From Symbiodinium sp. CCMP2592 (Eukaryota > Sar > Dinophyceae > Suessiales > Symbiodiniaceae), in the NCBI GenBank assembly GCA_905221615.1, contig CAJNDT010000134.1, forward strand, positions 186,001-250,000: a stretch of 64,000 bases of DNA, in the 5' to 3' direction. Positions 888 through 64,000 of the stretch are shown in pieces (within the stretch, counting starts at the first letter, position 1; each line of letters opens with the position of its first letter). The notes under the pieces were generated by a model, which was given only the letters and a program-made list of their open reading frames with translations, ran no database searches and was not told the origin of the DNA. Both the position numbers and the translations under genes were made by a program.

Positions 888-3130
888 CTCAGCGATGTGA
901 CTGCAGCAATGTCACTGCAAGTGCCAAATCCTTAGTGCTTGCACTGCTTTCCAACGGCAGGCAATACCCGCAACTTAACACCACGCTGAGGCTGCGAAGT
1001 CTTACAGCTACTGGCCTCAACGTGACGTCTCTACACTGTGTCCACTGCAGCCTGGAGGCCTTGCAAAAGCACGCTCTGCGACTTGCATTCTTGCGCCTGT
1101 GCACAGTGAAGGTGATAGACCTGCGTGGATGTTGTCTGCAGAGGGTTACCTCCCTGAAGGCACAGCACATGTGTGTCGAGAGCACCTTCTTCCCTTGAAG
1201 CCCGGAGTCTTCAGAACTTGCTGCAGGCAGTCCCGTACTTGTCCGAGATGATGCTGGACGGCAACGCACTTCTGTCCTGCAAGGACCGGAGATCTTAAGG
1301 AATCTGCAGCGGTCTTTGACCTACTGATGAAAGCGATGTGCTTTGCCACGCGTGAGAAGGGAAGTTGTGCAGACTGCAAATGGTTTTTCTGTAAGCCGAC
1401 CTGTGATTGTTCAAGATTGTGCAGCATAGACCATCATTCCGGCATGCGTCTGTTTGCTGTGATCCGTGTCAGATCCACATCAAAAATCGAGACTCCGTCG
1501 CAAGAGTTTGCCCATGAGGTTCAGCCATCTCAGGTGTCCACTGTTTGACAGCTGTGGCTGTATGATTTCTGGAATATGCCTACCGCCAACCGAAAGCCCA
1601 GCCTCGACAGGACTTGCTGGAGCATTCAATGCTGCAGGACTGCGCAACATTGCAAAACTGCACAAGCAGCTCGAAGAGACGGTGATAAGCTGCGGCTCGT
1701 TTTCGACTTGAGACCCTCCGCTTGGCGCACAACGCCATCGAGGAAATCAGTGCCGCGTTTTCCCCAGACTTCCCAGAAATTCAACCTGCATCTCAGCCAG
1801 AAGGGATCTGTGGACCCAGGTGCAGCTGCCTTCTCTGACAGAGCTGGACTTGGCATCCAACAACATCTCCCAGGCGATAAGTCGCATGAAACTCTACTTT
1901 TCGCTTTGACTTGGCAGAGCCCTGGCCGTTGAAACTCCCGGAAGTCTCGAGGCCTTGCACCTGGCAGGAGCTCCGCGCCTCGTGTCTCTCGCTTCCTCCT
2001 TATTTGGGGGTCCCTATAATAAGGATCCTGCTATTTGGGGTACTATATTAGGCCGGAAAAAGGGTTGCTGGAAAGTCAGCTGCTGACGAGGTCGTGCGTG
2101 GCAACCAGCTCACATCGCTAGGCTGGGGCTGGCGGTGGTGAAGTGTTTGTTCCTTCGCAGGTTTCTGGCCCTGTTTTGCGCCAGTTTCTCTTTCACCATT
2201 GCGCAGCCTCACATTCTTGGACGCCTCGCAGAATCAAATACGTGCACTGGAGTCACTGCCCCAGCACCAATGCCAGTTCGTCCGACTTGGTACGTTTCCA
2301 TGTTCTGAACCTGACCTCCTCCTTGAGAGTCGGTTCTGGAGGCCATCTTTGCGCTGGAGTCTGCGACCGCTGCGAGTGCTTTTGTTAAATGGCATGAGGC
2401 TAAGGCGAGCTCGGCTCCTGTGTTCGGCCCACCTGGGGCTTCCGAGGCAACGAGATCGCCGATGTAGAGGACGGGACGGGGCAGACAGAGTTGGAGAATT
2501 TCTGTTCACCTGCCTTCTCGCAGGATGTTGCGCAGACTATGGAAATGGCCGGCGGCTTGAGCTTGGAGTGGGGCCCTCGGCCCGATGTCGTTGTTATACG
2601 CCGACAAGACTACCGCCAACGCCGAAAATCGAAGACCTTCGATTCCAGTTTGTGCCGACAAGGAGCACGGAGTGGAGTCTGGCGGGTTTCGAATCTCGAA
2701 GTTTCCCCTAAGTCCGTGAAGGTTTGCAACAGCGCGCGGGGATGTCCGAGCGCAAGTCTGAAATTTCACCACTACTGTATGGGTCGCCAAAATCGAGCAC
2801 GGAAGGAGTGTGCGAGCAGGCCTTGAAGAACCGCTCACCAATTCTCGATCCTGAGCTTGGTTCCAGTTCCTTCAAAGATTAGGCTTCCTGTGTTCTCCGG
2901 CGGTTTGCACTGCCCTGCGGGATGCCGTGCGTCATGCTTTGTGTCACTCTCAGTGTCATGCTGTTCGCCTGTAGTAGTACAGCGGACGAACTCTTGCAAA
3001 GCACCTTCCTTCTCATCCTCACCGCACCAATCCCAGGCATCTGGATTTGCGGAACAATCCCCTCAGCACGGCGCTGAGTGTCGATACACCGAGGGGCTCT
3101 TCTCTCTCGCATGTTGATGGGCAGGCATCG
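888..3130 (+). CDS. Leucine-rich-repeat protein, multi-exon, joins unresolved
   Basis: Pieces in different + frames carry the LRR pattern LxxLxLxxNxL: PYLSEMMLDGNAL near 1230-1270, LETLRLAHNAIEEIS near 1707-1750, LPSLTELDLASNNIS at about 1826-1873, SLEALHLAGAPRLVSL near 1944-1995, LTFLDASQNQIRALESLP near 2205-2260 and HLDLRNNPLS near 3035-3065. A Leu-rich segment with IDLRGC lies at 888-1143. The 1826-1873 piece starts after a GCAG acceptor and ends at CAG|GC, matching the GC-donor style of genes further on, so frame changes are best read as short introns. LRR domains are protein-interaction scaffolds; the partner is unknown. Neither the start nor the end of the gene is fixed. A decayed gene remains possible because not all junctions can be placed. 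Confidence 0.5.
2006..2060 (-). mobile_element. MITE-like element copy, related to the one in the prefoldin intron
   Basis: Read on the - strand, this stretch has CTAATATAGTACCC, then ATAGCAGGATCCTT, then AGGGACCCC, in the same order and spacing as the 36534-36635 element. It lies between two LRR exons and so is probably intronic. The outer inverted repeats of the 36.5 kb copy are not clear here. Confidence 0.5.
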
Positions 3131-4430
3131 CCTTCTATCCGTTTGCAGAGAAGTTGCCCACATGGACCTCAGCCTTTTTTTGCTGAGCTGTCTGTCAGTG
3201 CATGTCATGTCATGCACAGCCGTGGCCCCTGCAAAGATGTTTGGGCTTTCGTGTGAACTGCGATGACCAGGACATGGGAAGCAAGTGCAACCCTGGAAGA
3301 CTTCGCCTCCATCAGCGCCGGAGTCTTGGAGCTCAGTTCTATTCTGCGGGTGGCTGTGGCTTCCTACTTGATGGCCACCTTGACTTTCCGTAGTTCGTGA
3401 CAGCTCAGAGCTTGTTGAATTCACTGTCTGCGAGGCTTTGTTTAGCTCCGGATGCCGGCTTGCTATCACTTGTGAGGACGGATACGACTCAGTACCGCGA
3501 AGCTTACGAGATCGTGGACGCCCAAAGACCTCAGCACGAGTCACATTGCTGCGCATCCTGCAGTGGCAGTCGCCCAGGTTACTGGCACCGGATGTCTTTG
3601 TTGAGCCCTTCGTTGCAGAGCCGCGATCTCAACTGCTCTCGAGTTTGAAAGGTTTCAAGGAGAGCCGAGCGAGCACCGGAGGCTTGGACGGGATGCTGAG
3701 GGACGCACGGCGTCTGCCGTTGCCTCTTTAGCTTAAGTGCTGTGCGAAGACTTGAGTTTCTACACCATCCAAGGCCTGAAACTGTGGCTCTGAAGCAAGA
3801 TCGATCCACAGCTCTTGCACTTCAAGGACCTCGGAAGCATTCGGAAACAGGCTTGCTTGTTGCCTGACATCGCAGGAGTTGATGGCGATGAGGTGATGTA
3901 TTGCACACCCAGGCAGCCCGCGAAAACTAGCTCCTGGGCGCTAGCGTGTACAAGCCCCGTTTTGGGTCTGTACCGCATCGGATTCCAGTGTGGGGGGAGT
4001 CGATTCTGCACCGTCGGTTCTCTCACGGTCGACCATCTTCTGTGGTCCTTTTTTTGTGACTTCAACCTCTGCTCGTGAATGTGTCACGACGTACACCAGA
4101 TGCAGGCGCAGCGCAGAAGCCTCGACACAGGCTTGTTTGGATCCGTGCCGTGCAAGCTACCGCTCATGTGTGCGACGTCGTGCGCAGGACTTCGTGGCAG
4201 AAGGCACATTCAGGCGAGCTTCTGTCGCTCGAACTGTTTCAGAATACATGTCTGCCTCTGCAGCCCCAGGAGCAACGAGGCCATCCCTTCGGAAGGTAGA
4301 AGCCAAGGCAAGGTACATGGTCGCACTGACATAGCGAAGGCGGTACCGCTTCGTTGGCCAAGGCACCAACGCGCAGCTTCCGACACAGCCGCTGACGGTG
4401 GACACAGCCGACGCAGAGCCATCCCTGGAG
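3131..4430 (+). other. Possible further exons, product unrecognised
   Basis: One + frame near 3286-3394 gives LEDFASISAGVLELSSILRV followed by a hydrophobic run ending at LMATLTF, which could be a membrane segment of the preceding LRR protein. Another frame at 3640-3730 reads FERFQGEPSEHRRLGRDAEG. No splice joins could be proven and no family was recognised. Confidence 0.25.
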
Positions 4431-4577
4431 TTCCCATGTGATACAAAAGCTGTTGTATCTTAGCGGCCCCAGGCCACTTCGCCCGTGTTCCGGGAACGTG
4501 AAGGCGCGAAGCTTTGCGCATCGAGCGAGGACCAAAGTTTTTCCCAGCAGGCTCACGGGACCAGGCTTCCAGCGCAA

Positions 4578-5337
4578 TGTCCACCGAAGCGCTCCTGAAT
4601 TTGGGCCTGGCGTCGGAGACTCAAACCCAGCCGAGGCTTTTGAACACATCAGCGCCCCCATCGTTTTCAGGCCTGAGTTGCTCGGTGAAGCGCAGCGAAG
4701 AGCAAGGAGAGCAGAGCAGCCACCAGTCGTCCTCGCGATGGAGGCCTCCATTCTGCCTTTCAGTCGTTTATCATTCAGATGAGAAGCAGGGCCTTTGCAG
4801 CTGCGGAGGTGGCAGCCGCAGCTGCCGCGGCCGCTGTTTCTGCCGCATCTACAGATCAGGCTTGCTGTTCTCAGTGCCGTGGTCTGCTGTGCCTATCTGC
4901 AGCCGAGTTTGCTTAGCCGGGTGTGTGTTTTGTTGTTCCCTGCAGGTGTTTGGCCAGTACCAAGCAAGAGCCTCGCCAGAGCATCGAGGAGGCCAGCGGT
5001 GCTCGCAAACCGCAAAGGAGGGCTCTTTCCTCGTGGCACTGTTGCACTTTCCCAGGCCGCCGACATGGCTCGGAGCAGCCTGGGCCTTCCCATGGCTCGG
5101 CTGAAGGCCCTGGGCTGTCTGCCGTCTGCATCCGTCCGCCGTCTGCCAGAGTCTTCCCTGCAGGTCTCGGCCCGGGCTCCATCTGGACGGGGGAGAGGTA
5201 AGCTTACGCAGAGCCCTGGGGGGGGGAACCCCTGGGAAGTGGAAGTCGTGAGTCGTGGCGGCTGCTCGAGAGGTCGGTTCCCGATGGTCAGGCAGAGCAG
5301 GCTGGGCGATCGAGTGCAAACGCATTTCTCGCAATAG
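4578..5337 (+). CDS. Hypothetical coding region, low support
   Basis: All three + frames are unusually open here. One frame holds MSTEALLNLGLASETQTQP (from 4578). Another holds an Ala-rich run, AEVAAAAAAAAVSAASTDQA (about 4805-4865). A third runs 180 codons to 5337. The shifts could be short introns. No family was recognised, and GC-rich DNA keeps frames open by chance, so this is a weak call. Confidence 0.22.
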
Positions 5338-5339
5338 CA

Positions 5340-6120
5340 CCCGGAACAGGTTGATGAAGGAGTTACTTCAAGTCAAGGCTCGTTCTTGCCAGTGGTTGAC
5401 TTGAGCGTGCCGTCCCCATAATTTCGCCGGGCTGGAGAGAAGTGGTGGCTCGTGTTCTGTGATGTGTAAGGCCTGTGCCGGACGCGGTCCACTCCCTGCA
5501 GCAGACAGCCTGCACCGACCCCAACAGCGGACGGCACGGGAGGTTCATCGGTCTGTTCAGCATTCTGGCAGGTCGGCACGGGCCGCATCTGCGCAGCTCC
5601 CAGGTGTCTCGGTCGCTTCAGGGCAGGGCTGCTCGTGGCCCCGATAGTGCCAGCAGACAGAACTTCGAGATGGCCATCGGTTGCAAGAGATTTAGGGTTT
5701 GACGGTTTGAGTCTGAGTTTAATTGCTGTTGTGCGAAACAGTACTCGTAGTTGTCTGGAGGATATGGTTCAGACAGATTCAGACATGTCCAGACACGAAT
5801 TCTGAGCACCTGTGCCCAGACACACCCTGAGAAACTCATACACTGTCGATATCATCTGGGTCTTGTTTAGTTTCCATTATTGTTCATTTCTCTGTTATGT
5901 CACAGGCAGTGTCTGTGCCCCGGTGACCACATAGTTATCGCTGTTCCATCAACCCAACAGCGAAACCCGACGCCTGCTCGTCGTGCCAGCCGCCTACTTC
6001 GAGGGCTAACGGCTTGTCTGCGGCTGGCCAAACAAATCCCCAAAAGAGAACAAATCGAATAGTCTCGTCGCCTCGAGTTGCCTGCCGCGCGCACGATTGC
6101 ACATGCCCCGGACGCAGGGA
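5340..6120. other. No gene recognised
   Basis: Short open frames only, without family patterns. The stretch ends in a pyrimidine-containing region before the coiled-coil gene and may hold its upstream exons or intron. Confidence 0.3.
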
Positions 6121-7378: not shown

Positions 7379-7936
7379 ATCCGCCTGGAAGTAATGGTGC
7401 CTTTCGGCGAGCAAGGTCCTGAGACACGCATGCTCGAAACTCGAAACGGAACGGGTCCTGTGCACTGAGGCCTTGCAAGGTCAGGGGATCTGGGAAGTCG
7501 AAGATTCTCCGAAGACCAAGGAGGTGCATAGTTTAGCACTGCTCCCACGTTGATGGTAGCCCACTGCGTAAAGGGATCATGTTTGTGCCAGGCCCAGGCC
7601 CAGGCGTCGGCGCCAGCGGAGCTCTTGGCCTCGGAGTCGCGACCTTGGATGACAGCCGAAGCCAGTTTCGATAATGCCACTAGCAGAAGTCTCGGCAAAG
7701 ACTTAAGGCATGGACTGGGTAGGCATGCATGCCTGCACAGCTTGATCTGTCTGCCATGGTATTCGTCCGTTTTTTCGGGGGCTCAGGCCCTTGAGCGGCA
7801 GTCCCATTCACGCAGCTTGCCGGGCGGAGGCATCGCAATCATGTTCACAGCGGCTATTTGGTTCGTACATCTCCCCATTCTTGCTTCGAGCCCTCAAGCA
7901 GAACCATCCCCGTGGTGCATGCTCGAAAGTTGAAGC

Positions 7937-8722
7937 ATGTTCAAAAGCGCTGCGGAGGCAGAGAACATGCAGGTGAACGGTCATCCGCGTGATTTAACGA
8001 TCACAGCTTCGCTGGATGCCGCATCCTTGGACACCACCATGAGTCGCTGCAAGGGGCTTTGTAGTGTTGAGCCTTCCAACTTTGAGAAACGCCAGATGCC
8101 GGCGCACCCAGGAGGAGGGAAGCCAAAGGGTGGTTTCGAGCACGGAGGCGTCCCTTCCGTCTTGATTGTATATAGGCTTGTCCAAGGTCATGTAGTTGTC
8201 AGATGGACAGAGTGTGCATTAACTTCGTGTAGCGGTGATGTCGGTTTCGTGTTGCGCTGCACATGCAAGCCAAAAGCTAGACCCTGCCGTGGTCGCTTCC
8301 CTTGCAGAAGGCCAGATCGAATGGCCGCTCGGAAGCATTTTGAGGCCGTGGTGGAATGTCTGAGCACACCGTGCAATATCGTGTGTCACTGTCATTTTGC
8401 TGGCTTGCAGTTCTGCGTTGTCATGGCTGAGAACTGGAAGCCCGAAGCTTTCAGTCCATTCGTGATGTCCCCGTTCTTTCGGGCATGTCACCCAAAGCTA
8501 GAACATTTCTCTTGTGTAGCTCGTTGCATCCATGCTTTGTCTTTGTCTTTGCGCCGTTTGCGATGGGTACCCAATTCTACAATGAAGAAGTGGCCTGTGA
8601 TTTCTGTTGAGACTGTGGAGGAGAGTACCCAGTCCAAAGCGCGTCCCGAGTCCGTGGCTTGTGTTCACCTGCTGGCCAAGGCTACAAATTTCCGGCTAAC
8701 TCAAGAAACCACGTTGTTGTAA
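7937..8722 (+). CDS. Hypothetical ORF, 261 codons, unrecognised
   Basis: An uninterrupted ATG-to-TAA frame rich in Cys, Arg and His. It shows no repeat, membrane segment or domain pattern that I know. Length is its only support, and long chance frames are common at this GC content. The other recognised genes here, apart from cytochrome c, the SPOUT-like gene and the BART-like gene, are split into short exons, which argues mildly against a single 786-bp exon. Confidence 0.2.
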   Translation: MFKSAAEAENMQVNGHPRDLTITASLDAASLDTTMSRCKGLCSVEPSNFEKRQMPAHPGGGKPKGGFEHGGVPSVLIVYRLVQGHVVVRWTECALTSCSGDVGFVLRCTCKPKARPCRGRFPCRRPDRMAARKHFEAVVECLSTPCNIVCHCHFAGLQFCVVMAENWKPEAFSPFVMSPFFRACHPKLEHFSCVARCIHALSLSLRRLRWVPNSTMKKWPVISVETVEESTQSKARPESVACVHLLAKATNFRLTQETTLL

Positions 8723-9379
8723 ATCAGAGTTGGTGGCTCGTGTAAGAAATGCAATGTCAGGCCTGACCAGTATCAGGTTCCAGGGCTGGAACACCTTGGA
8801 AGGGACGCGCTAATCCGACCACACCATTCGAGGGCATTGAGGCCAATATTAGTCACGCCCGTTTCCCCTCTCCTGGCTCGTGAAACAGCTGAGCTGTTCG
8901 GGGTGTGCGGATGTAAAGACAAAGCAGAGCTGCGACAGCAGAGGGTAGAGTGTTGCAGACAAGTTGCGGAAGACTGCCTAGGCCAAGACTCGAGGCAGGC
9001 CTACTTGAGGCTTCTGGATTGCAATTGTGCTTTCTTGTTTTGTTCTGGAAGGTTTCAAAGTCAAGCTCACAAGCATGCAGCATGCTGCAGGTTTCTTCGG
9101 AGCGAGATGCTGGCACAGCAAGCTTATCTTCGGTCGGACACCTGCTTTCATGACTTGACGGACGTGTCCATGCCTGTGCTGATGTGGACAGAGACCCTTG
9201 ATCTGCAGGGAGATTAGAAGCGCCAGACAAGCGAAGAAGCAACATCTGAATCTGTGTTGTTCTGAGCTGGTCGGTGTGGGCAGGGTGCTGCAGCATCACT
9301 TCTAGACCTGACTCGTGAAGGCAAAAGGCCTCGCCCAGGTGCCCTGAAAGAGCCATGCAGGCACGGTGCGCTGGTCGTT
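8723..9379. other. No gene recognised
   Basis: Open frames on both strands but no family pattern or convincing splice signals. Confidence 0.3.
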
Positions 9380-51554: not shown

Positions 51555-51680
51555 AAGAACATACTTACCCACGCACATACCTACCCACATACTTACATAC
51601 CTACATACATACTGTTACATATATATATATATATATGTATACACACATAAGTGTCACATGTTGTATATGTGTATATGTGT
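51555..51680 (+). repeat. TACA/TACC and TA microsatellites
   Basis: CATACCTACCCACATACTTA-type tetranucleotide repeats (51565-51612), then (TA)n at 51619-51636 and GTGTATATGTGTATATGTG. Confidence 0.9.
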
Positions 51681-51705
51681 GGGCTTTACAAGTCCTTTGG
51701 CTGCG

Positions 51706-52158
51706 ATGTCGGGCCTGGAGCTGGTACAAGCGCTGAACGAGTGGCACTGGAACAACAATTGCTTCCACGATCACGTCCTGCAGTTTGCGAAGAGCCATGA
51801 GTTGGTCCTGAAATCGGAAGAGGATGAGCATTCTCATGAGCTGTATCAGCTCCACGAAGACTTCAGGCAGCTGCTGGAAAGCTTTGTTACGAGCTTTCTG
51901 GACCATTATGGTGCGACTCTAGACAATTTGGAGGCCGCGCTGCTTGAAGCGCAGGCCTCGGATGACCTGTACGTCACGATGAGCTCTGAGGTTGTTCGAG
52001 AAGAGCTCTTCGCGTTACTGGATTATCAGGCTTTCCATAAGACAATGCTTCGTGCAGTGGCAATGGATGCAGAATCACAGCGGCCAGTGGGTGCTCCTGC
52101 CGACGATGATTTCAGGGACACTGTGGGGCCAGGAAGGAACAATGGATACCTGTCATAG
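51706..52158 (+). CDS. BART-domain-like protein (ARL2BP/CFAP36-type)
   Basis: A 150-residue protein in one exon, starting MSGLELVQALNEWHWNNN. The segment from about residue 20 to 120 is helical and fits the BART pattern: FAKSHELVL, then EDEHSHELYQLHEDFRQLLE, FVTSFLDHYGATLDNLEAAL and VREELFALLDYQAFHKTML. BART domains (ARL2BP, CFAP36) bind the small GTPases ARL2 and ARL3 and act in ciliary and mitochondrial traffic. The first ATG of the frame (51658) lies in TA-rich repeat, so the ATG at 51706 is preferred. It is the last + strand gene before the AT-rich zone. The family is judged from the pattern of spacing, not from a search. Confidence 0.6.
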   Translation: MSGLELVQALNEWHWNNNCFHDHVLQFAKSHELVLKSEEDEHSHELYQLHEDFRQLLESFVTSFLDHYGATLDNLEAALLEAQASDDLYVTMSSEVVREELFALLDYQAFHKTMLRAVAMDAESQRPVGAPADDDFRDTVGPGRNNGYLS

Positions 52159-55903: not shown

Positions 55904-56003
55904 NNNNNNNNNNNNNNNNNNNNNNNNNNNNNNNNNNNNNNNNNNNNNNNNNNNNNNNNNNNNNNNNNNNNNNNNNNNNNNNNNNNNNNNNNNNNNNNNN
56001 NNN
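55904..56003. other. Assembly gap, 100 N
   Basis: Exactly 100 N, a typical fixed-size scaffold gap, so the true distance and possibly the adjacency of the two sides are not certain. Confidence 0.99.
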
Positions 56004-56347
56004 AATCTCATCTGTTTCTTCCATGGCCACGAAGTCATGATGGGAAAAGTTTCTGATAATATTTGTTGCCAGATTGATATCATCCAGGAAAACCCACTGG
56101 CTTCAAGAATCACATCATAGTTGCACTCAGGCAGAACTTCATAAGGACCTTCATTATGGAACTCAAGAAGCGACGGGTCAACTTCGCAAAGGCGCAGAAC
56201 ATCCTGTCCTCTCGAAATGGCCAAGAATCTCTTCTCCAGTGCGATGTTTGCATCAAACTGCCGCCGAATGTCTGCTAACAGTCTTCTTCTTGTTTCAGCC
56301 GGGTCATCTGCTGCTGCAGACATGGCACTCCGAATTACACTCTGCAT
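56004..56347 (-). CDS. Unrecognised - strand exon, truncated by gap
   Basis: Reads MQSVIRSAMSAAADDPAETR, then LLADIRRQFDANIALEKRFL, then EVDPSLLEFHNEGPYEVLPE toward the gap. It is helical and acidic, with protein-like codon use. No known domain. It may be the 3' part of the gene at 57740 or a separate gene. Confidence 0.45.
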
Positions 56348-56759
56348 GGCACTCTGTCCTATCCGCAAGAAAGTGTAACACCTTAACCTCAAGGGTGTTC
56401 GAATTAACAACGTAATTGTGAACCAGCACATTCAGCAGTTGACACACTTGTGAGTCGATTGATCCATCACAACACAAGGATGAGACAGACATGATGCAAT
56501 CCCTCGTTGAAATTCACATGTGGCATAGTTGTTGCAGACCATGACTTCATGCTCAAGCAATCAAATACAGCACTGCCAGACCCTCACTCGATTCTCGTTT
56601 TTCTGGTACCGCACACAGCAGTCCATCCATCGTCCTCGACGATTCCGAGGCCACCGAAGTGGCAGACACAAGCATTCTTGGCACTCTGCCTTCTGTAAAG
56701 CTTCCAAGCTGTCATTGAAAGACATCAACCTTAGGGCCACCAGAAATCTTCAGGTGGCT

Positions 56760-57740
56760 CACAGTCGGAGGGTGGTTCTGAGGAGATATACCCCGATCGA
56801 CGACCACGAATGCGAAATCCTTTGCCTTCACCTGCAGAATCATACTGATTTGAGTCTGGGGACGACTGAGCTTCGTCCAGTGCGTCCATCTCCTCATTGT
56901 CTGACTCCTCACCTTCCTACACATCTGAGGGGGCTCCATCATCCGCTGAGCCGCGCTGACTCCAGTCCGGGTCTTCTTCTGAGATGTGCCCATAATCAAT
57001 ACCCAAACGACCCCGCCATCCAAGCTCACCAAGACGAACATCTCGAACACCTTCCTCAATCACATCTGAGTCTGAGGCGTGAATCTCACCTTCGGCACGA
57101 GCTGGCCCAGTCAACCAGGCATCCGGGCGAGATTCCAAACGAAAAAAAATTTGACCACGAACTCCACTTTCGAACTCATCTGGCACTCTGCCTTCCGGCA
57201 CTCTGCCTTCTGGCACTCTGCCTCAGTAGCTCCACTGTTGGCATTATTGTTAGGGCCAGGATAGCCATTTTCAGGCATCGGCCTTGGCGGCACTATTGGT
57301 GGCGGCGGGTTGTCTGGAGCATTGAAACACATGGCACAAATTCGCCGTCCCAACTGCCGACGTTGCATCTCTTCAGGGGTCAAGTGCTCAAGGGTGACCA
57401 GAACAATGCGGCCCTCCCTAACAGTAACCACATCCGGCTCGAAGTTGATCATGATCGGGGTCTCCATAATGTCCAACGCTTCTGCCACGGCTTGGGCAAT
57501 CTCAAACTCATGTCGCGCAGGGGCGGGAGGTCTTGGGCCAGGTGGGTAAGGTGGCCGATTCACAGGCGTTGGTGGCGGCGGACCCATTTGTGGCCCTGGC
57601 ACTCTGCCTTCCGCCCCACCACCTTCTTCACCAATGCCATTCACACCGGTTGGCGGCACTCTACGAGGCCGTCGCTTCGGAGTCCTCACCCCGCCGATCC
57701 TCCCCGCTGCTGCCGGTTTGGCCTTCGGTTTCGGTGCCAT
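56760..57740 (-). CDS. Pro-rich protein carrying GRVP/AECQ repeat insertions; frame broken
   Basis: Starts MAPKPKAKPAAAGRIGGVRT at 57740 with a good ATG context, then a Pro-rich part with GAEGRVPGPQMG (a repeat copy), then a folded-looking part (HEFEIAQAVAEALDIMETPI, REGRIVLVTLEHLTPEEMQR) and CAMCFNAPDN. At 57222-57182 three tandem repeat copies read ATEAECQKAECRKAECQ. Beyond them the coding-looking frame is a different one (GRVPDEFESGVRGQIFF to SADDGAPSDV), which meets TAG near 56917 and then continues coding-like (EGEESDNEEMDALDEAQSSP, ISSEPPSDCEPPEDFW). The frame change and stop may be introns, sequence errors or decay. No family recognised. Confidence 0.5.
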
Positions 57741-57859
57741 GGTGCTTAACTTTAAATATCTTTGATCCAACAAGCTGCAAGCAACTATATGTGTTGGATA
57801 GTACGAACAGGTACTAGAAGTTGATTGTCATGTCCGTTTCAATACCACATGCAATAGGT

Positions 57860-58340
57860 TCCACTGGACGACACAAGCATTTATGCACATGATCATTAGA
57901 TTAACACATATTTGAAGACAGAGTGCTATTAATAGATGATGTAGTTTAATGTTCGAAAGCAGTATGCCCAATAATAAGTGTATGCATATAATCCATACAT
58001 ATATCTATATGTATGTATGTATGTTATACATATACCTAGGTCTATGTGTAAACTTACCACACACAGTAACGGTTTAGGGTTTAAAAGAGCTTCAGGGTTT
58101 TAGGTTTTAAGGAGGTCCATGGTTTAAAGGTACTTCAAGGCAGAGTGCCACCTAGTTTATGCTTAATCATAAGATGTGTTACTACTCGTAGGGATTTGGT
58201 TGGGTTAGCTGGACTGTGCCGATTCAATGGGATTCGATATTGTATAACTAGCTCCCAAGATTCAATAAGCTCCAACAAGACTTTTGGGAGGGGATGCTAC
58301 ATGTGTGCAATTGTCTGGTACAGGGTCGGTGTGCCTTCAA
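57860..58340. other. No gene recognised
   Basis: AT-rich spacer with GTATGTATGTATGT near 58011 and a TTTAGGG-like piece at 58070-58082. One GGCACTCTGCC copy lies here in reverse orientation (58139-58149). Confidence 0.5.
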
Positions 58341-58344
58341 AACG

Positions 58345-58745
58345 TGATGGCCCGAACACTAAGATTCAATAAGATTTTTTCGGGTAGTCCACAATCCTGC
58401 AAATGTCTTCTAAGATTCAATAAGATTTTTTGGGCGAGCTGGAGGCTGTGTCCCTTGTAAAACCGATAAGATTCAATAAGATTCAATAAGATTCAATAAG
58501 ATTCAATAAGATTCAATAAGATTCAATAAGATTTTTTCGGGGTAGGCCACAATTGTACAAATGTCTTCTAAGATTCAATAAGATTCAATAAGATTTTTTG
58601 GGGCGATCTGGAGTCGTGTCCCTTTTAAAAATGATGGACCAATAAGATTCAATAAGATTCAATAAGATTCAATAAGATTCAATAAGATTCAATAAGATTT
58701 TTCCGGGGCATGCCACAAGTGTCACAAATGTCTTCTAAGATTTTG
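58345..58745 (+). repeat. Higher-order tandem array of AATAAGATTC decamers
   Basis: Blocks of two to seven AATAAGATTC units (58471-58528, 58569-58593, 58639-58697) each end in AATAAGATTTTTTCGGG or a variant. They alternate with a roughly 60-bp spacer containing GCCACAA, ACAAATGTCTTCTAAGATTC and GTGTCCCTT. The whole block-plus-spacer unit is repeated about four times. Confidence 0.9.
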
Positions 58746-59121
58746 CAGGGCCTGTGGGGCGGTATGGGGATGGTGTCCCTTCAAAGGCCATATGTTTTTT
58801 AAACACGGATGCACCCCATTGCAGACTTCCGTGGTCCTTTGTTGGGTCCCTCCCAACTGGTGTTCTAGGACAGGTTGGATCCTGCCTTTGGCGCGGATTT
58901 GTCCACAGGCATCTGCAGTATCCTTGTGAAATCGACAGACCGCCTGGGATTACAAAGAGACATACATTCCTGATGGCATAATGCAACACAAGGCAACACA
59001 ATCATGTCAATACATAATGATCATGGAACACATGTTACAACCCATGGCACTCCGCCTTCAGAAACATGTCTGTGACAATGGCATTGCCACACCTCCAAAA
59101 TTAATAAGACTCGAGGCCACA
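58746..59121. other. No gene recognised
   Basis: Spacer downstream of the RING gene (on its 3' side). Short frames only. Confidence 0.4.
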
Positions 59122-60820
59122 TCACCGACAACACATACACATGAGCCAGTTATTGTGGCACTCTGCCTTGTTACCGAGCCACCTTGTCGACGCAATCAGT
59201 CCACCAACGGGGTCGTTGACCTCAGGAGCTTCCTCTTCACGAGTGCGGTCGTCAACGAGTTGAGCTTGTATTTCCTGAACGATTGCGTCCACATCATTAG
59301 CATCATCTTCGACAGGAACAGGGGCATTGCTTCCCGTGGACCCCCTCGGACCCAAAAAGAACCTTGCCATAGAGGCTGAGCTCGCACACTTGAGAGGGCA
59401 AGCGGTGGCCTTGTTCCGCCCGGTCGACTCACAGTATCGATTGATACATTCGCTGTGAAAGAGGTGGCCACACGATAGCGCTTCCAATGCCTGCATTCCA
59501 GGGAAGCAACAGAAAAAGACACGTCATGTGAGAGGTACTGTTCTGAGGATTAGTGGAATGTACAAACAGGACAGGCACCACTATCAATGGTTCATTAACC
59601 AAAGGCAAACGAAACCAGCCTGCCTGGCCCGGGTGCATCTCCGAATGGCAAATGACACAGAGGTCCTGGTTCCACCGGTTCGCAGGTCTGCTCGACTCAT
59701 TCGGAGCATCCTCCTCCTCCTCCTCAAAGAAGGCACTGTCGTCGGCCTCGCCCTCGACCTCGGCCTCGACCTCGGCCCCGGCCTCGACCTCGGCCCCGGC
59801 CTCGGCCATGACCTCATCATCGACCTCGACTGCGACCTCGTCCTGCGACTCTGTGTTTGGTGCCGTCGCCCTGGCCTTGGACTTGGCCTTGGCTTTCGAC
59901 TTGCCCTTGGCTTTTGCTTTGGCTTTCGACTTGGGTGTCGCAAAGGGCACAACGGCATTCACGTCAGCACCGGCTGTCGAGTCACTGTTCGTGGAGGTGT
60001 CTGGCTCTGGCAACTCAACTGTTTGAGGTGCAGTGGTCACTTCTGCAGGAGGCATGACGATCTCCTGATCGGGCCTGATCTCTGCCTCTGCCGGCGCTAG
60101 ACCATCGTCATCCATGGCAGGAGCATTCCCATCAACTGGCACTCTGCCTTCCACAACCCTCGGCACTCTGTCTTGTTCACTTCCTGCAGCCTGGCTGCCT
60201 TCGGTTGCCTGGCTTGCATTGGAACCCGGAACGGCATGAGGGGAGGCAGGCGGCTGTTGAATCGGCACTCTGCCTTGTTCCCCAGCCGGGCTGCGACCCA
60301 CAGCCTGGCTTGGATTGGAACTAGGAGCAGTCGTTGGCAAAGGACCAGAACGGACCACGTCTGGCACTCTGCCTTCCGACGGCGGAACCGTTGGCGGGGC
60401 AGCTGGAGCAGGACTCGGATTGAAACTGAGACGTCCCTGCGTCTCAGTGGACTGCCTTGCTCTCGCTCTACGCCTGGCATAGGTCGTGACATCCTCGGTC
60501 ATCCATGTGGACTGCCATCCACACTCCAAGGCAACCCTGTCAACAGAATGCTCAGACATATTCACCCCCAGTCCCAGAACCGGTTTGGCTATGCGGTTCC
60601 AACTGCTGCTATCGCAGACGGATTGACGCCTATGGGCATTCTCACATCGCTGACCAAGCAAGCTGTATTTCATATCGACCCTGAGTTCACTGACCTTTGT
60701 GGTCGGCTTCAGATTGGTCAATATGAAGAGCAGTTGCAGCGCTGTTTGTTGTGGCAGGTCAGCCGTGACCGCAGCATCCCATGCACTATGAACTCGCTCG
60801 AGCAGAGCTTTCACCTTCAC
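59122..60820 (-). CDS. RING-finger protein with acidic and Lys/Ala-rich regions
   Basis: The RING finger is split by an intron: DLCVICHSEMHPGQ ends the first exon at 59624 (CAG|GC), and ALEALSCGHLFHSECINRYC starts the next at 59490, with ATACPLKC completing the C-x2-C, C-x-H-x3-H-x2-C, C-x2-C ligands. RING fingers bind E2 enzymes, so this is probably an E3 ubiquitin ligase. The 133-bp intron is GC-AG. Upstream in the same frame are an N-terminal helix part (SEHSVDRVALECGWQSTWMT), a Pro/Ser-rich part with several repeat-derived GRVP motifs, a run of KSKAKAKAKGKSKAKAKSKA and an acidic run (EAGAEVEAGAEVEAEVEGEA). The protein ends EARWLGNKAECH-like, with a repeat copy in a different frame near the C-terminus. 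The start at 60820 is only the first Met; introns near the N-terminus are possible. Confidence 0.75.
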
Positions 60821-60880
60821 CTCAGTCAGTAAGGCTTATCTAGGCTTTGTGGGGGGAGGGTTCAGGGATCATTGCTGACC

Positions 60881-61436
60881 TTAGGGATACTCTGTTGATT
60901 GACAAGCAGCCAGAGGGATCGAACGCAATGTCGTGGCGCTTCTCGGGATTGCATCTGCATCGGTAGTGGACGTTGCCAGCCGATCAATCCCGATCGTTGC
61001 TGCTTGCCTTGCTCTGTTCTTCTTGGTTTCCTTACGAATCCTCCTCACTTCTTGGTCTTCTGATTCCGACGAGGAGGAGTCGTTGGCACTCTGCCTTGAT
61101 TCACCCCCAGCAGCCATCTGCTGCTGTTGCTGCATTTGCTGCATCTGCTGCATGCATCTGCTGCATCTGTTGCATTTGCTGCATCTGTTGCTGCTGCTGT
61201 TGCAACAAGAAAGGGTTCATCATGGCCAGTGGGTTGTTCATTCCCATTGCTGGGTTCATTGCCCCCGGCATCGGGAACATCATCTGATCACTCACACGAG
61301 CGCTCTTCCTCGACTTTCCCATTGCTCTCGGCGACTGTCTCTGGCACTCTGCCTGGAAGCACCACTGCGGCACTAAGCGACTCGATCTTGAACACACATA
61401 TGTTGATGGCGGCCAGGTCAAGAAACTCTTGAGCAT
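60881..61436 (-). CDS. Gln/Met-repeat protein segment, partial
   Basis: A - frame reads MMFPMPGAMNPAMGMNNPLA and then LLQQQQQQMQQMQQMQQM. The adjacent frame carries on after the repeat with SANDSSSSESEDQEVRRIRK and basic residues. The DNA is a CTGCTGCAT/CTG repeat at about 61105-61205 (+ strand), prone to length change. Two GGCACTCTGCC copies are inside (61085, 61343). It is probably one exon whose frame is obscured by repeat-length variation. Confidence 0.4.
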
Positions 61437-61449
61437 CCACTCACTAGTG

Positions 61450-62020
61450 ACTAGAGTCAGTGCAAACTACGTGGCGTGGTCCCATGAACGGCCAGATAGC
61501 AAGCGTTTCAGCTTCCACAACTCACAAACACTTGCATCATGCATTCCAGCCTTGCCATGGTAGCCAACCAGCGTGGACACCAGCACCTGAGAGGTTTTAT
61601 GGGGCTGTCACAGGAAACCAAGGTTGAATCAATTCACAAGCACAGTAATCCATCGAGTTGCTGCCGACATGACTGTATGCATAGGCACCGTCTGTGTTTT
61701 CCAAAACGGCAAGCTCGAATGTGCCAGATCAGACGGACTGCAAAAGTGGCAAATTTCAAACGTCCCAAGAAATGCGATTTCACATTGGCACTCTGCCTTT
61801 TCCGGCACTCTGCCTAGTGACAGCGACACAAAAAAGAATCTGAACAGGCCACACTGTTTGGTGGCACTCTGCCTTAGTCACACCGAGAACTCTCTGGCAC
61901 TCTGCCTTGTGAAAGTCCCCAGTGCCCAAGGACGAATGGGATGAAGAAGAGGAGGTCCACTAGATGGCTTTGTTTTGGCAACACAATTAATAAACCTACT
62001 CGTTCAGCTCAATCATTGAC
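61450..62020. other. Intergenic spacer with four GGCACTCTGCC copies
   Basis: No coding frame recognised. Copies of the 11-mer lie at 61787, 61804, 61863 and 61896, showing that the repeat is not limited to coding DNA. Confidence 0.55.
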
Positions 62021-62025
62021 ACTGA

Positions 62026-62817
62026 TCAATCCTGAAAGCCATCTGCAGTTACTCCCCAATCAGGAACGAAGTTCGCAGTGGTCTGGTAAACATCCACATA
62101 CTCTTCATCTTCCGATGGCGGGACATCATCACCCATCTGGCTCACCGCGTCTAGGTCTTCCCCCCTTGCCTTCTGTTCCAGCTTCTTCTGACAATACACA
62201 AGCATGGTGTAATTGTAAGCATCCCAAATCTTGCAGGACAAAGGCACAATCCAGCTCTGCAGGTCTTTGGGCCTGAATTTTTCCTTTGAGATGACATCTT
62301 CCGTCGTATAAACCTCAACGAGTCTCTTGGAGGCCTCCCACCAGTGCCAGTATGTCAGATGTTTTCCCTTGACTAAATCACGGCCATGAACTGGCGGAGT
62401 GACATTGAACATGCACTGGAGAATCTGCTCAATGACCGCCACCCCAGTTTCCCTCTGAAGCCACAGGTGCCAGTCCCCAGGCTCAGAATTGTTTGGAATC
62501 TCCTTCACGTTCTGGTCACACAACAGATCCCAGACAACCGCAGTTTTCGAGCCCTTCGACCGAAAGTCATTCCACGCCATGTCCTTTCTATCCACTGGCA
62601 CGTTATTCTTCTCGCATTCTCGGACTGTGATCTCATGGACAGCCATGAGCAGCTGGGTCATGACAGTCGTAGTCTTGCTGTTGAACTTCCGATCGTTGTG
62701 CTGGGGGTTGAACGGCTGATCTTGTGGCACCGGTCTCGCCATACGTGCCCGATTGGCGAGGCGGCCCACCTTCGAAGTCGTCACCGCCCTGTGACTGCAT
62801 GGCAGCATTCCCCGCAA
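62026..62817 (-). CDS. Unrecognised 263-residue protein
   Basis: A long - frame with clear protein composition: MTQLLMAVHEITVRECEKNN, WDLLCDQNVKEIPNNSEPGD, HLTYWHWWEASKRLVEVYTT and an acidic tail (PPSEDEEYVDVYQ). The frame stays open upstream of the first Met (AETEEEKTLRALRG), so the start may lie in an earlier exon. The Trp-rich middle does not match a family I know. It contains no copy of the 11-mer repeat. Confidence 0.6.
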   Translation of the reverse strand: MRGMLPCSHRAVTTSKVGRLANRARMARPVPQDQPFNPQHNDRKFNSKTTTVMTQLLMAVHEITVRECEKNNVPVDRKDMAWNDFRSKGSKTAVVWDLLCDQNVKEIPNNSEPGDWHLWLQRETGVAVIEQILQCMFNVTPPVHGRDLVKGKHLTYWHWWEASKRLVEVYTTEDVISKEKFRPKDLQSWIVPLSCKIWDAYNYTMLVYCQKKLEQKARGEDLDAVSQMGDDVPPSEDEEYVDVYQTTANFVPDWGVTADGFQD

Positions 62818-62849
62818 CGCTCTGAGAGTTTTCTCCTCCTCAGTCTCTG

Positions 62850-64000
62850 CTGCAAAAGCTCGGCTGGAACCTTGATCTTGTTTTGACCCCTTGGCACTCT
62901 GCCTTGGGGGTCCGTAATTCCGAGGTCCTCCTCCGCTTCCAAGAAAGGCTTCACCTCTCCAGGCACTGGCGCAGTCGCACTCTTGGGGTTTGCGGCAGCC
63001 TTCGGGCTCGGGTCCACATTCATAGCCCCCAGCTCGTTCATGACCTTGGCAACGACGGGGGGTCGTCCTCCCTCTCAGTCACCTGGGCCTCTGGTGCAGG
63101 AGGCATCGGCTCATCTTGCTCCTCTCGGAGATGGTCCCCTAGTACCATTGTTGCTTGGCTGTCACCCTCATCCTCGTCCAAGCGATCCGGGTCGGGCTCC
63201 GCCTCCATCTCAAGCGGCGGTTGCTCATCCTGCACCATAACCTCGACAAATTCCATTTCATCGTCCGACGGATCTTGCACAGGCTCCTCCTCTTCCACCA
63301 CAACATCAACCAAAGTGTCCTCCTCCTCGGCTTCCACCTCCTCCTTGGGGTCCAACCATATTCCTCCCTTCTCCGTCTTCATATGCCGCAAAAAAGCAGG
63401 ATGAGCTTCGCCTGGACGGCCCTTTCCAACAAGGTGAGTAGGGATATTGGGACGGCCCTTTCCAACAAGTGGCACTAGGGCTGGACGGCCCTTTCCAACA
63501 AGGTCAGTAGGGATATTGTCCTCCACTGGCACTCTGCCTTTGTGGCCCTTTCCGGCAGGCTTGCCCTTTTGGGCGAAGTAAGCTGCTTTCCCGATCGGGA
63601 CGGCGTCGCCCTTGCTTTTCAAGCCCTGGGCCTTTGCCACCCAGGCCGGCTCAGCGCGTCGGCCCTGCGGAACGAAATTGGAGCCTCTTGCCGTATCGTC
63701 AGCATACTCGGCAAGTTCCTTGGCGAAATCCTGCTCGTCCATCCTTTGCTTTTCCGTCATTTCAGCAGGAGCACTTGCCGACATAAACTGTGGCTTGGAA
63801 CCAACAGGCACAGGCTGTCCGTCGCCGAATTTCCTTTTGGCAGGAGGCTGCTTTGCCGGCGGGGGACCCATCGGCTCTGGCACTCTGCCTTGCTCTGCCG
63901 GCGGGGGACCCATCGGCTCTGGCACTCTTGGCGGGGGATTCGGCTCGGGATCTGGCACTCTGCCTTGCTTTGCCGGCGGGGGACCCATCGGCTCTGGCAC
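62850..64000 (-). CDS. Acidic, Pro/Lys-Gly-Arg-rich protein with repeat-derived GRVP motifs, runs off window
   Basis: Enters at the window end reading MGPPPAKQGRVPDPEPN, repeats MGPPPAEQGRVPEP, then has VGKGRP repeats (LVGKGRPALVP, LVGKGRPNIPTHLVGKGRPG) and a long acidic region (EEVEAEEEDTLVDVVVEEEE). That frame stops at 63038. A second - frame (63041-62781) continues with MNELGAMNVDPSPKAAANPK, a further GRVP copy (DPQGRVPRGQNK) and a basic end, so an intron or shift lies near 63040. Low-complexity and probably disordered; function unknown. Confidence 0.5.

Follow-up and report, generated by a model that had tools for sequence, protein, structure and literature searches.

The right-hand end of the 64,000-nucleotide stretch of Symbiodinium sp. 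CCMP2592 DNA analyzed here (called the window, at its full length) is part of a giant, multi-gene DNA transposon bounded by terminal inverted repeats (TIRs), and it is studded with copies of a short palindrome, the 11-mer GGCACTCTGCC (called the word). By rough count, nearly all copies of the word in the genome are carried by this one transposon family, and the word apparently increases in number along with its carrier. Within the element the copies keep a common orientation, recur at fairly even intervals, change less than their flanks, and lie in open reading frames (ORFs) as well as in spacers. A cis-acting recognition tag of the transposon, working on DNA or RNA, would fit this orientation, evenness, conservation, and confinement, and it is the reading that we favor, tentatively and with somewhat less than even confidence.

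The word and the giant transposon that carries it

Twenty exact copies of the 11-mer are present in the window, all within positions 56680-63964, and 19 of them lie on one strand; the single opposite-strand copy is at 58139-58149. A preliminary description of this DNA, made from its letters, had held that the number of copies exceeds chance and that their orientation is shared. Both observations stand: all 20 copies were recovered, compared with a mean of 0.12 and a maximum of 1 in 100 dinucleotide shuffles. The word is absent from window positions 1-55903, to the left of a 100-N assembly gap. Read on the strand of the element's genes, the consensus extends to 14 bp, RAAGGCAGAGTGCCRG, and among 67 nonredundant copies the flanks are nearly information-free past ~15 bp. 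The genome-wide count by strand that the description had proposed gives 10,552 + 9,890 = 20,442 words in 1.098 Gb (5383 contigs), as opposed to 126 + 118 = 244 for a reversed-word control. The 14-mer possibly forms an RNA hairpin (predicted at -4.4 kcal/mol), and window positions 56004-64000 contain no Rfam match at gathering scores. An adapter or assembly artefact was considered as the source of the word and dismissed, since the same word sites are found in copies on several contigs and proteins encoded in other genomes also contain the peptide GRVP, one of those that the word specifies.

The window lies on contig C134, and the transposon copy occupies window positions 56004-64000 on the complementary strand. 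The 100-N gap (55904-56003) forms its left bound, and what lay further left has been lost; to the right the copy extends 8844 bases past the window, to its right TIR at C134:258844 (TIR core at C134:258801-258835). By BLAST it matches a copy on contig C1 at 96.6% identity over 16.95 kb, and homology between the two contigs stops at an inverted repeat whose counterpart, aligned over ~62 bp, lies at the opposite end of that C1 copy. These TIRs are ~60 bp long, and a 35-base core taken from them has 411 matches in the genome (control, 0). Many opposite-strand pairs are present among the 100 core places listed, with spans of ~32-34 kb (on C80, C358, C462, and C469), of ~5 kb in several cases, and of other sizes as well; the pairs on C358 and C462, 32.1 and 33.8 kb apart, each enclose a match to a RING-finger-like gene of the element. 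Target duplications of 5 bp, read by eye, are ACTTA at element L214, TTAAT at element L215, and ATATA at the C1 element, the last in low-complexity DNA. For one element gene the genome offers 362 candidate places, and the 40 that were scored comprise the window itself and 39 others at 99% identity. On C1, 14.7 kb are repeated at 99% identity on either side of another 100-N gap (C1:1171294-1171393); because the same sequence stands twice around such a gap, this tandem is possibly an assembly matter, an unmerged overlap.

Most of the 15 element ORFs scanned against Pfam match no family, and RING-like and phosphatase-like matches fall under the cut-offs. A 957-amino-acid ORF is DDE-transposase-like by eye only; it has no Pfam or PDB match, and its structure model has a predicted local distance difference test score (pLDDT) of 34.5, too low for the model to be of use. 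Two element genes have relatives in other genomes, of which one is named Symbiodinium necroappetens, and viral contigs yielded no relatives of the RING or 957-amino-acid queries. Maverick/Polinton elements are also large, TIR-bounded, and multi-gene, with a target duplication of 5-6 bp. The giant element is like them in its TIRs, its size, and its many genes, but the 15 ORFs scanned gave no Pfam match to a DNA polymerase or an integrase. The data point to a family of giant TIR transposons whose target duplications are 5 bp long and many of whose genes belong to no Pfam family. The ~5-kb TIR elements L214 and L215 have ends and an inner segment of 10-bp repeats in common with the giant element and lack its genes; they are probably nonautonomous derivatives of it. 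Positions 7866-9023 of locus L193, inside the transposon, look methyltransferase-like by eye and have no Pfam match.

Several counts bear on how far the word is confined to this family. Of the fetched sequence, 203.5 kb has no element match of at least 200 bp, and in it the word count is 0; an even spread would place ~3.8 words there (P about 0.02), so that this zero, taken alone, is of modest weight. A doublet pattern of the word occurs at 4,233 places in the genome (control, 0). Among the 100 doublets listed, 98 have exactly the element's own spacers and the other 2 have them with one change, and 73 of the 100 are on eight contigs besides C1. Copy A of the element contains 16 doublets and the 5' part 1 more, so the doublets amount to roughly 250 element equivalents; the 20,442 words, at ~76 per element, amount to roughly 270 elements. 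By these rough estimates little is left for the rest of the genome. The earlier proposal of a tiny element that spreads by itself is not supported; nearly all copies, by this rough count, ride on one family of giant TIR transposons.

Outside this genome, at least 120 stretches of viral contigs contain the 14-mer, and the 80 listed hold a single match each. Prokaryote contigs contain 61 stretches with two close words, and the 9 of these 61 loci that were inspected are other tandem repeats. Gut Clostridia (L130, L138, L180, L142, L160) carry tandem repeats with an extended palindrome, GGACGGCAGAGTGCCGTCC, which contains the same 11-mer; these repeats are probably unrelated to the transposon word. 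Judged by titles and the first lines of abstracts, none of the 10 and 2 papers that contain the 11-mer or its reverse complement seems to concern such a repeat, and the accessible part of PMC11114475 holds nothing on it.

Arrangement and conservation of the word

Along the giant element the word occurs about once per 600 bases, within and between genes. The sense strand of copy A (24.2 kb) holds 57 exact, 8 one-mismatch, and 7 two-mismatch words, compared with means of 0, 0.25, and 3.45, respectively, for shuffled words. Its antisense strand holds 10 exact words, 9 of which are clustered close to the left TIR in an array of 93 bp, and throughout the mapped body the words are gene-oriented save one. 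Two gene-bearing copies (A and the 5' part of copy D) together contribute ~67 nonredundant sense words in addition to the subterminal array; the combined body map of 28.3 kb joins these two copies and is shorter than the 32-34-kb TIR pairs. ORFs of at least 300 codons contain 33 of the 67 words, in all three phases (26 read as GRVP, 5 as RQSA, and 2 as AEC), and the other 34 lie elsewhere. This agrees with the earlier claim that the word occurs in spacers as well as in coding frames, and in the latter in more than one phase. One of the peptides cited for that claim, KAECQKAEC, is a shifted-frame reading, and the AEC triplet of the window is such a form of GRVP units: the C1 copy gives EGRVPEGRVPEGRVP at this site and the relatives P0012-P0015 have GRVP units; other AEC and RQSA copies do sit in long ORFs.

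The dispersed words have a common orientation without common flanks, and clusters of words are spaced more evenly than random. When words less than 100 bp apart are merged, the coefficient of variation (CV) of the gaps on the combined map is 0.50, versus 0.81 in simulations (P 0.0002); with the antisense body word added it is 0.45, versus 0.81 (0 of 10,000). At the other three merging thresholds P is at most 0.0064 in all three runs. Copy A alone has a CV of 0.40 (0 of 20,000), with P at most 0.0037 at all four thresholds, which answers the objection that the combined map joins two copies. The left subterminal array is excluded from all of these tests.

The preliminary description had also suggested that selection or mobility acts on DNA or RNA and not on one peptide. 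Constraint at the level of the nucleic acid is supported by the words outside long ORFs and by the codons of those inside. In ORFs of at least 300 codons of copies A and D (overlapping sets), GRVP is spelled GGCAGAGTGCC in 36 of 36 cases; the codon use of the same ORFs is mixed (GGC 33%, AGA 20%, GTG 42%). In addition, the proteins P0006 and P0009 from other genomes have a start in common with P0001 and then an alternative frame, with AEC at aligned sites. If the GRVP of P0001 and the AEC of P0006 and P0009 come from the same DNA, the codons can only be GGC-[AC]GA-GTG-CC, and it is nucleotides that are kept, not the peptide alone.

Comparisons among element copies point in the same direction. 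Between copy A or B and copy D there are 0-1 mismatches in 33-43 aligned words, while the flanks differ by 2.4-3.4% (P 0.005 to 0.0001 by resampling); unaligned words (11 of 44, 24 of 57, 1 of 44, and 6 of 48) were dropped from the comparisons of A, B, and D. In the 5' region, where two subfamilies (D with L218; B with L216 and L219) are 4-5% apart, all 10 word sites are exact in D, B, and L218, 9 are exact and one is mismatched in L219, and all 8 sites covered by the trimmed L216 are exact. Polymorphic columns in this region number 1 of 110 within words versus 55 of 1042 nearby (one-sided P 0.023).

Nearly all word sites are common to the copies compared, with one or two lost or altered. The only gains seen are short tandem duplications, of 16 bp in D and of 24 bp in A and B; the remaining differences are point changes and one small repeat difference. 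Among the copies compared in this genome, neither a precise empty site nor a target duplication of the word's own was seen. No sign of independent movement of the word, which the description had entertained, was seen among these copies, in which the sites are nearly all the same and the gains seen are tandem only. According to the description, a repeat restricted to one low-complexity gene family, with identical positions in every relative, would be an ancestral protein repeat. Within this genome the word largely has that distribution, but that conclusion cannot be drawn from it, as long ORFs account for only about half of the words.

A possible recognition tag and its rivals

The numbers of the word are best explained by the multiplication of the transposon. 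If the word is a tag, it would be read by a putative factor, encoded by the element or by the host, on element DNA or on transcripts; action on transcripts is considered because orientation is kept. A likely purpose would be continued expression of the entire gene-bearing body, or its protection from silencing, like that which VANC proteins confer on VANDAL transposons through family-specific motifs. New tags would be born of short tandem duplications and then retained every few hundred bases. In a more specific version, which we regard as possible at best, the words would form an evenly spaced, strand-oriented 14-bp self-address code over ~28 kb, exons included, that is read by an element factor on RNA or DNA, marks transcripts or chromatin, and constrains proteins in all three phases. 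A functional tag would mean that a recognition code runs through, and is imposed on, the reading frames of the genes that a giant transposon carries, and it would help to show how elements of high copy number remain expressed in the large genomes of dinoflagellates.

Other short or palindromic repeats provide partial parallels. The palindromic elements of Rickettsia (~100-150 bp) are scattered over the genome and read in frame inside coding genes; the word is likewise a palindrome in coding genes, but it is only 14 bp and, as far as can be judged, restricted to a single family of transposons. DNA uptake sequences of Neisseria and Haemophilus are short conserved words found genome-wide in genes and spacers and tied to competence. 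The word is likewise strongly conserved and far above chance in genes and spacers, but is apparently transposon-confined. Introner elements of Amoebophrya and other algae, as described in the accessible part of PMC7789003, include dinoflagellate elements, have inverted repeats of 8-20 nt, and lie inside genes; according to that part they are introns with direct border repeats, whereas the word has neither a body nor border repeats and is also found within open frames.

Among described systems known to us, the one that seems closest in kind is the VANC motif of VANDAL elements. In the accessible part of PMC5735166, the VANC21 motif YAGTATTAY of Arabidopsis VANDAL is family-specific, dense, in one orientation, built by tandem repeats, and mainly noncoding. 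As far as that part goes, the word is similar in its enrichment in one family (judged from counts and samples), high density, single orientation, tandem-repeat gains, and retention inside the element, but differs in being 14 bp long and dispersed through ORFs and spacers over ~28 kb, with 33 of 67 copies in long ORFs. No VANC-like protein was identified.

Several results weigh against a tag. The 5-kb elements L214 and L215 hold 2 words each, both in subterminal repeats, and body-wide words therefore seem unneeded for the movement of a TIR element. The predicted hairpin is not accompanied by compensating changes, and 2 of the 9 one-mismatch words listed alter its loop. Confinement is drawn from counts and from part of the doublet list rather than from a genome-wide map. 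As to conservation, copies A and B (0.7% apart) give P 0.20 one way and 0.047 the other way. The words compared in A, B, and D were picked as exact in one copy, which cuts the expected difference by up to half. The gene region (five copies, at most 1.6% apart) shows 0-1 word changes in ~200 bases; the expected number is 0 to 3, and the comparison gives no evidence either way. The conservation comparisons also overlap, are not independent, and include few copies.

A serious rival to the tag, although we consider it doubtful, is that the word is a neutral passenger: a slippage-prone short palindrome that grew in number in an ancestor of the element, through tandem duplication and locally templated copying, with its present numbers reflecting a transposon burst. 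Such an origin would be consistent with tandem gains that differ between copies (16 bp in D, 24 bp in A and B), with doublets spaced 13-28 bp, and with a number of GRVP units that differs among relatives at one site; moreover, the gene-region copies are young, so that their shared sites say little about age. However, the dispersed words share an orientation without shared flanks and are evenly spaced, and they change less than their flanks, whereas a passenger should decay. Even if the word is a passenger, the pattern is explained, and a one-word probe finds copies of the element in raw sequence.

It is unlikely that the word is a transposase or mobilization signal, that is, a binding site for moving or packaging element DNA. 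Words are indeed present in the left subterminal array, and 2 are retained in each of the two 5-kb elements read; however, the bodies of these two elements are without words, which leaves ~60 body words of the giant element unexplained, and a palindromic DNA site would be expected to be unoriented. Still less probable is that the word is a micro-element of 13-16 bp, mobile by itself, with the transposon as its insertion target: the sharp edges at ~14-15 bp and the occupation of all phases would suit it, but the copies compared show neither an empty site nor a target duplication that would belong to it, and the 203.5 kb outside the element contain no word. The least probable is a GRVP peptide repeated for protein function, for although the GRVP phase accounts for 26 of the 33 words that ORFs of at least 300 codons contain and GRVP residues are 82-88% identical among relatives (flanks, 57-58%), such ORFs leave out 34 of the 67 words, another 7 words are read in different phases, and synonymous variants number 0 of 36.

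Features of the window

Features of the element in the window are on the complementary strand except where noted. The leftmost word copy is at 56680-56690. An element ORF at 57111-57773 contains four copies, three in tandem with 15-bp steps (57182-57222) and one in the GRVP phase (57598-57608), and the number of GRVP units at that site varies among relatives. The reverse-oriented copy (58139-58149, forward strand) is in no long ORF and adjoins a TTTAGGG-like repeat. The RING-finger-like gene (59122-60820) consists of two ORFs, 59429-60820 and 59122-59496, with weak Pfam RING matches below the cut-off and the homologs P0001-P0011; one relative with a name comes from Symbiodinium. A word copy is present at its 3' end (59157-59167). 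Three others, in the GRVP phase, are at 60138-60148, where C1 copy B has GGCCGAGTGCC; at 60264-60274, where GRVP is found in 6 of 6 aligned sequences (the window and five relatives); and at 60363-60373, where relatives vary (GGVP in P0001, NTMP in P0003). At 60162-60172 there is a one-mismatch word, GACAGAGTGCC, and AEC stands at the aligned place in P0006 and P0009.

Further to the right, a copy in the RQSA phase (61085-61095) lies in a 90-amino-acid ORF and one in the AEC phase (61343-61353) in a 111-amino-acid ORF, and four copies beginning at 61787, 61804, 61863, and 61896 (61787-61906) are without a long ORF. The last element ORFs, 63038-64000 and 62026-62817 (spanning 62026-64000), have as their counterpart in the C1 copy a single 1245-codon open frame that extends past the window. 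The word copy at 62893-62903 is in the GRVP phase in the long ORF of the C1 copy. The remaining copies are in the GRVP phase, at 63528-63538 and, within a ~42-bp coding repeat that both share, at 63879-63889 and 63954-63964.

Adjoining the transposon at another locus, L200, the ORFs at 2625-5557 (forward strand) have, by eye, the look of another dinoflagellate retroelement, in its reverse transcriptase and C5 methyltransferase parts. In the window itself, outside the element, an ORF on the forward strand (51658-52158) encodes an ARL2-binding BART domain (Pfam E 1.1e-10).

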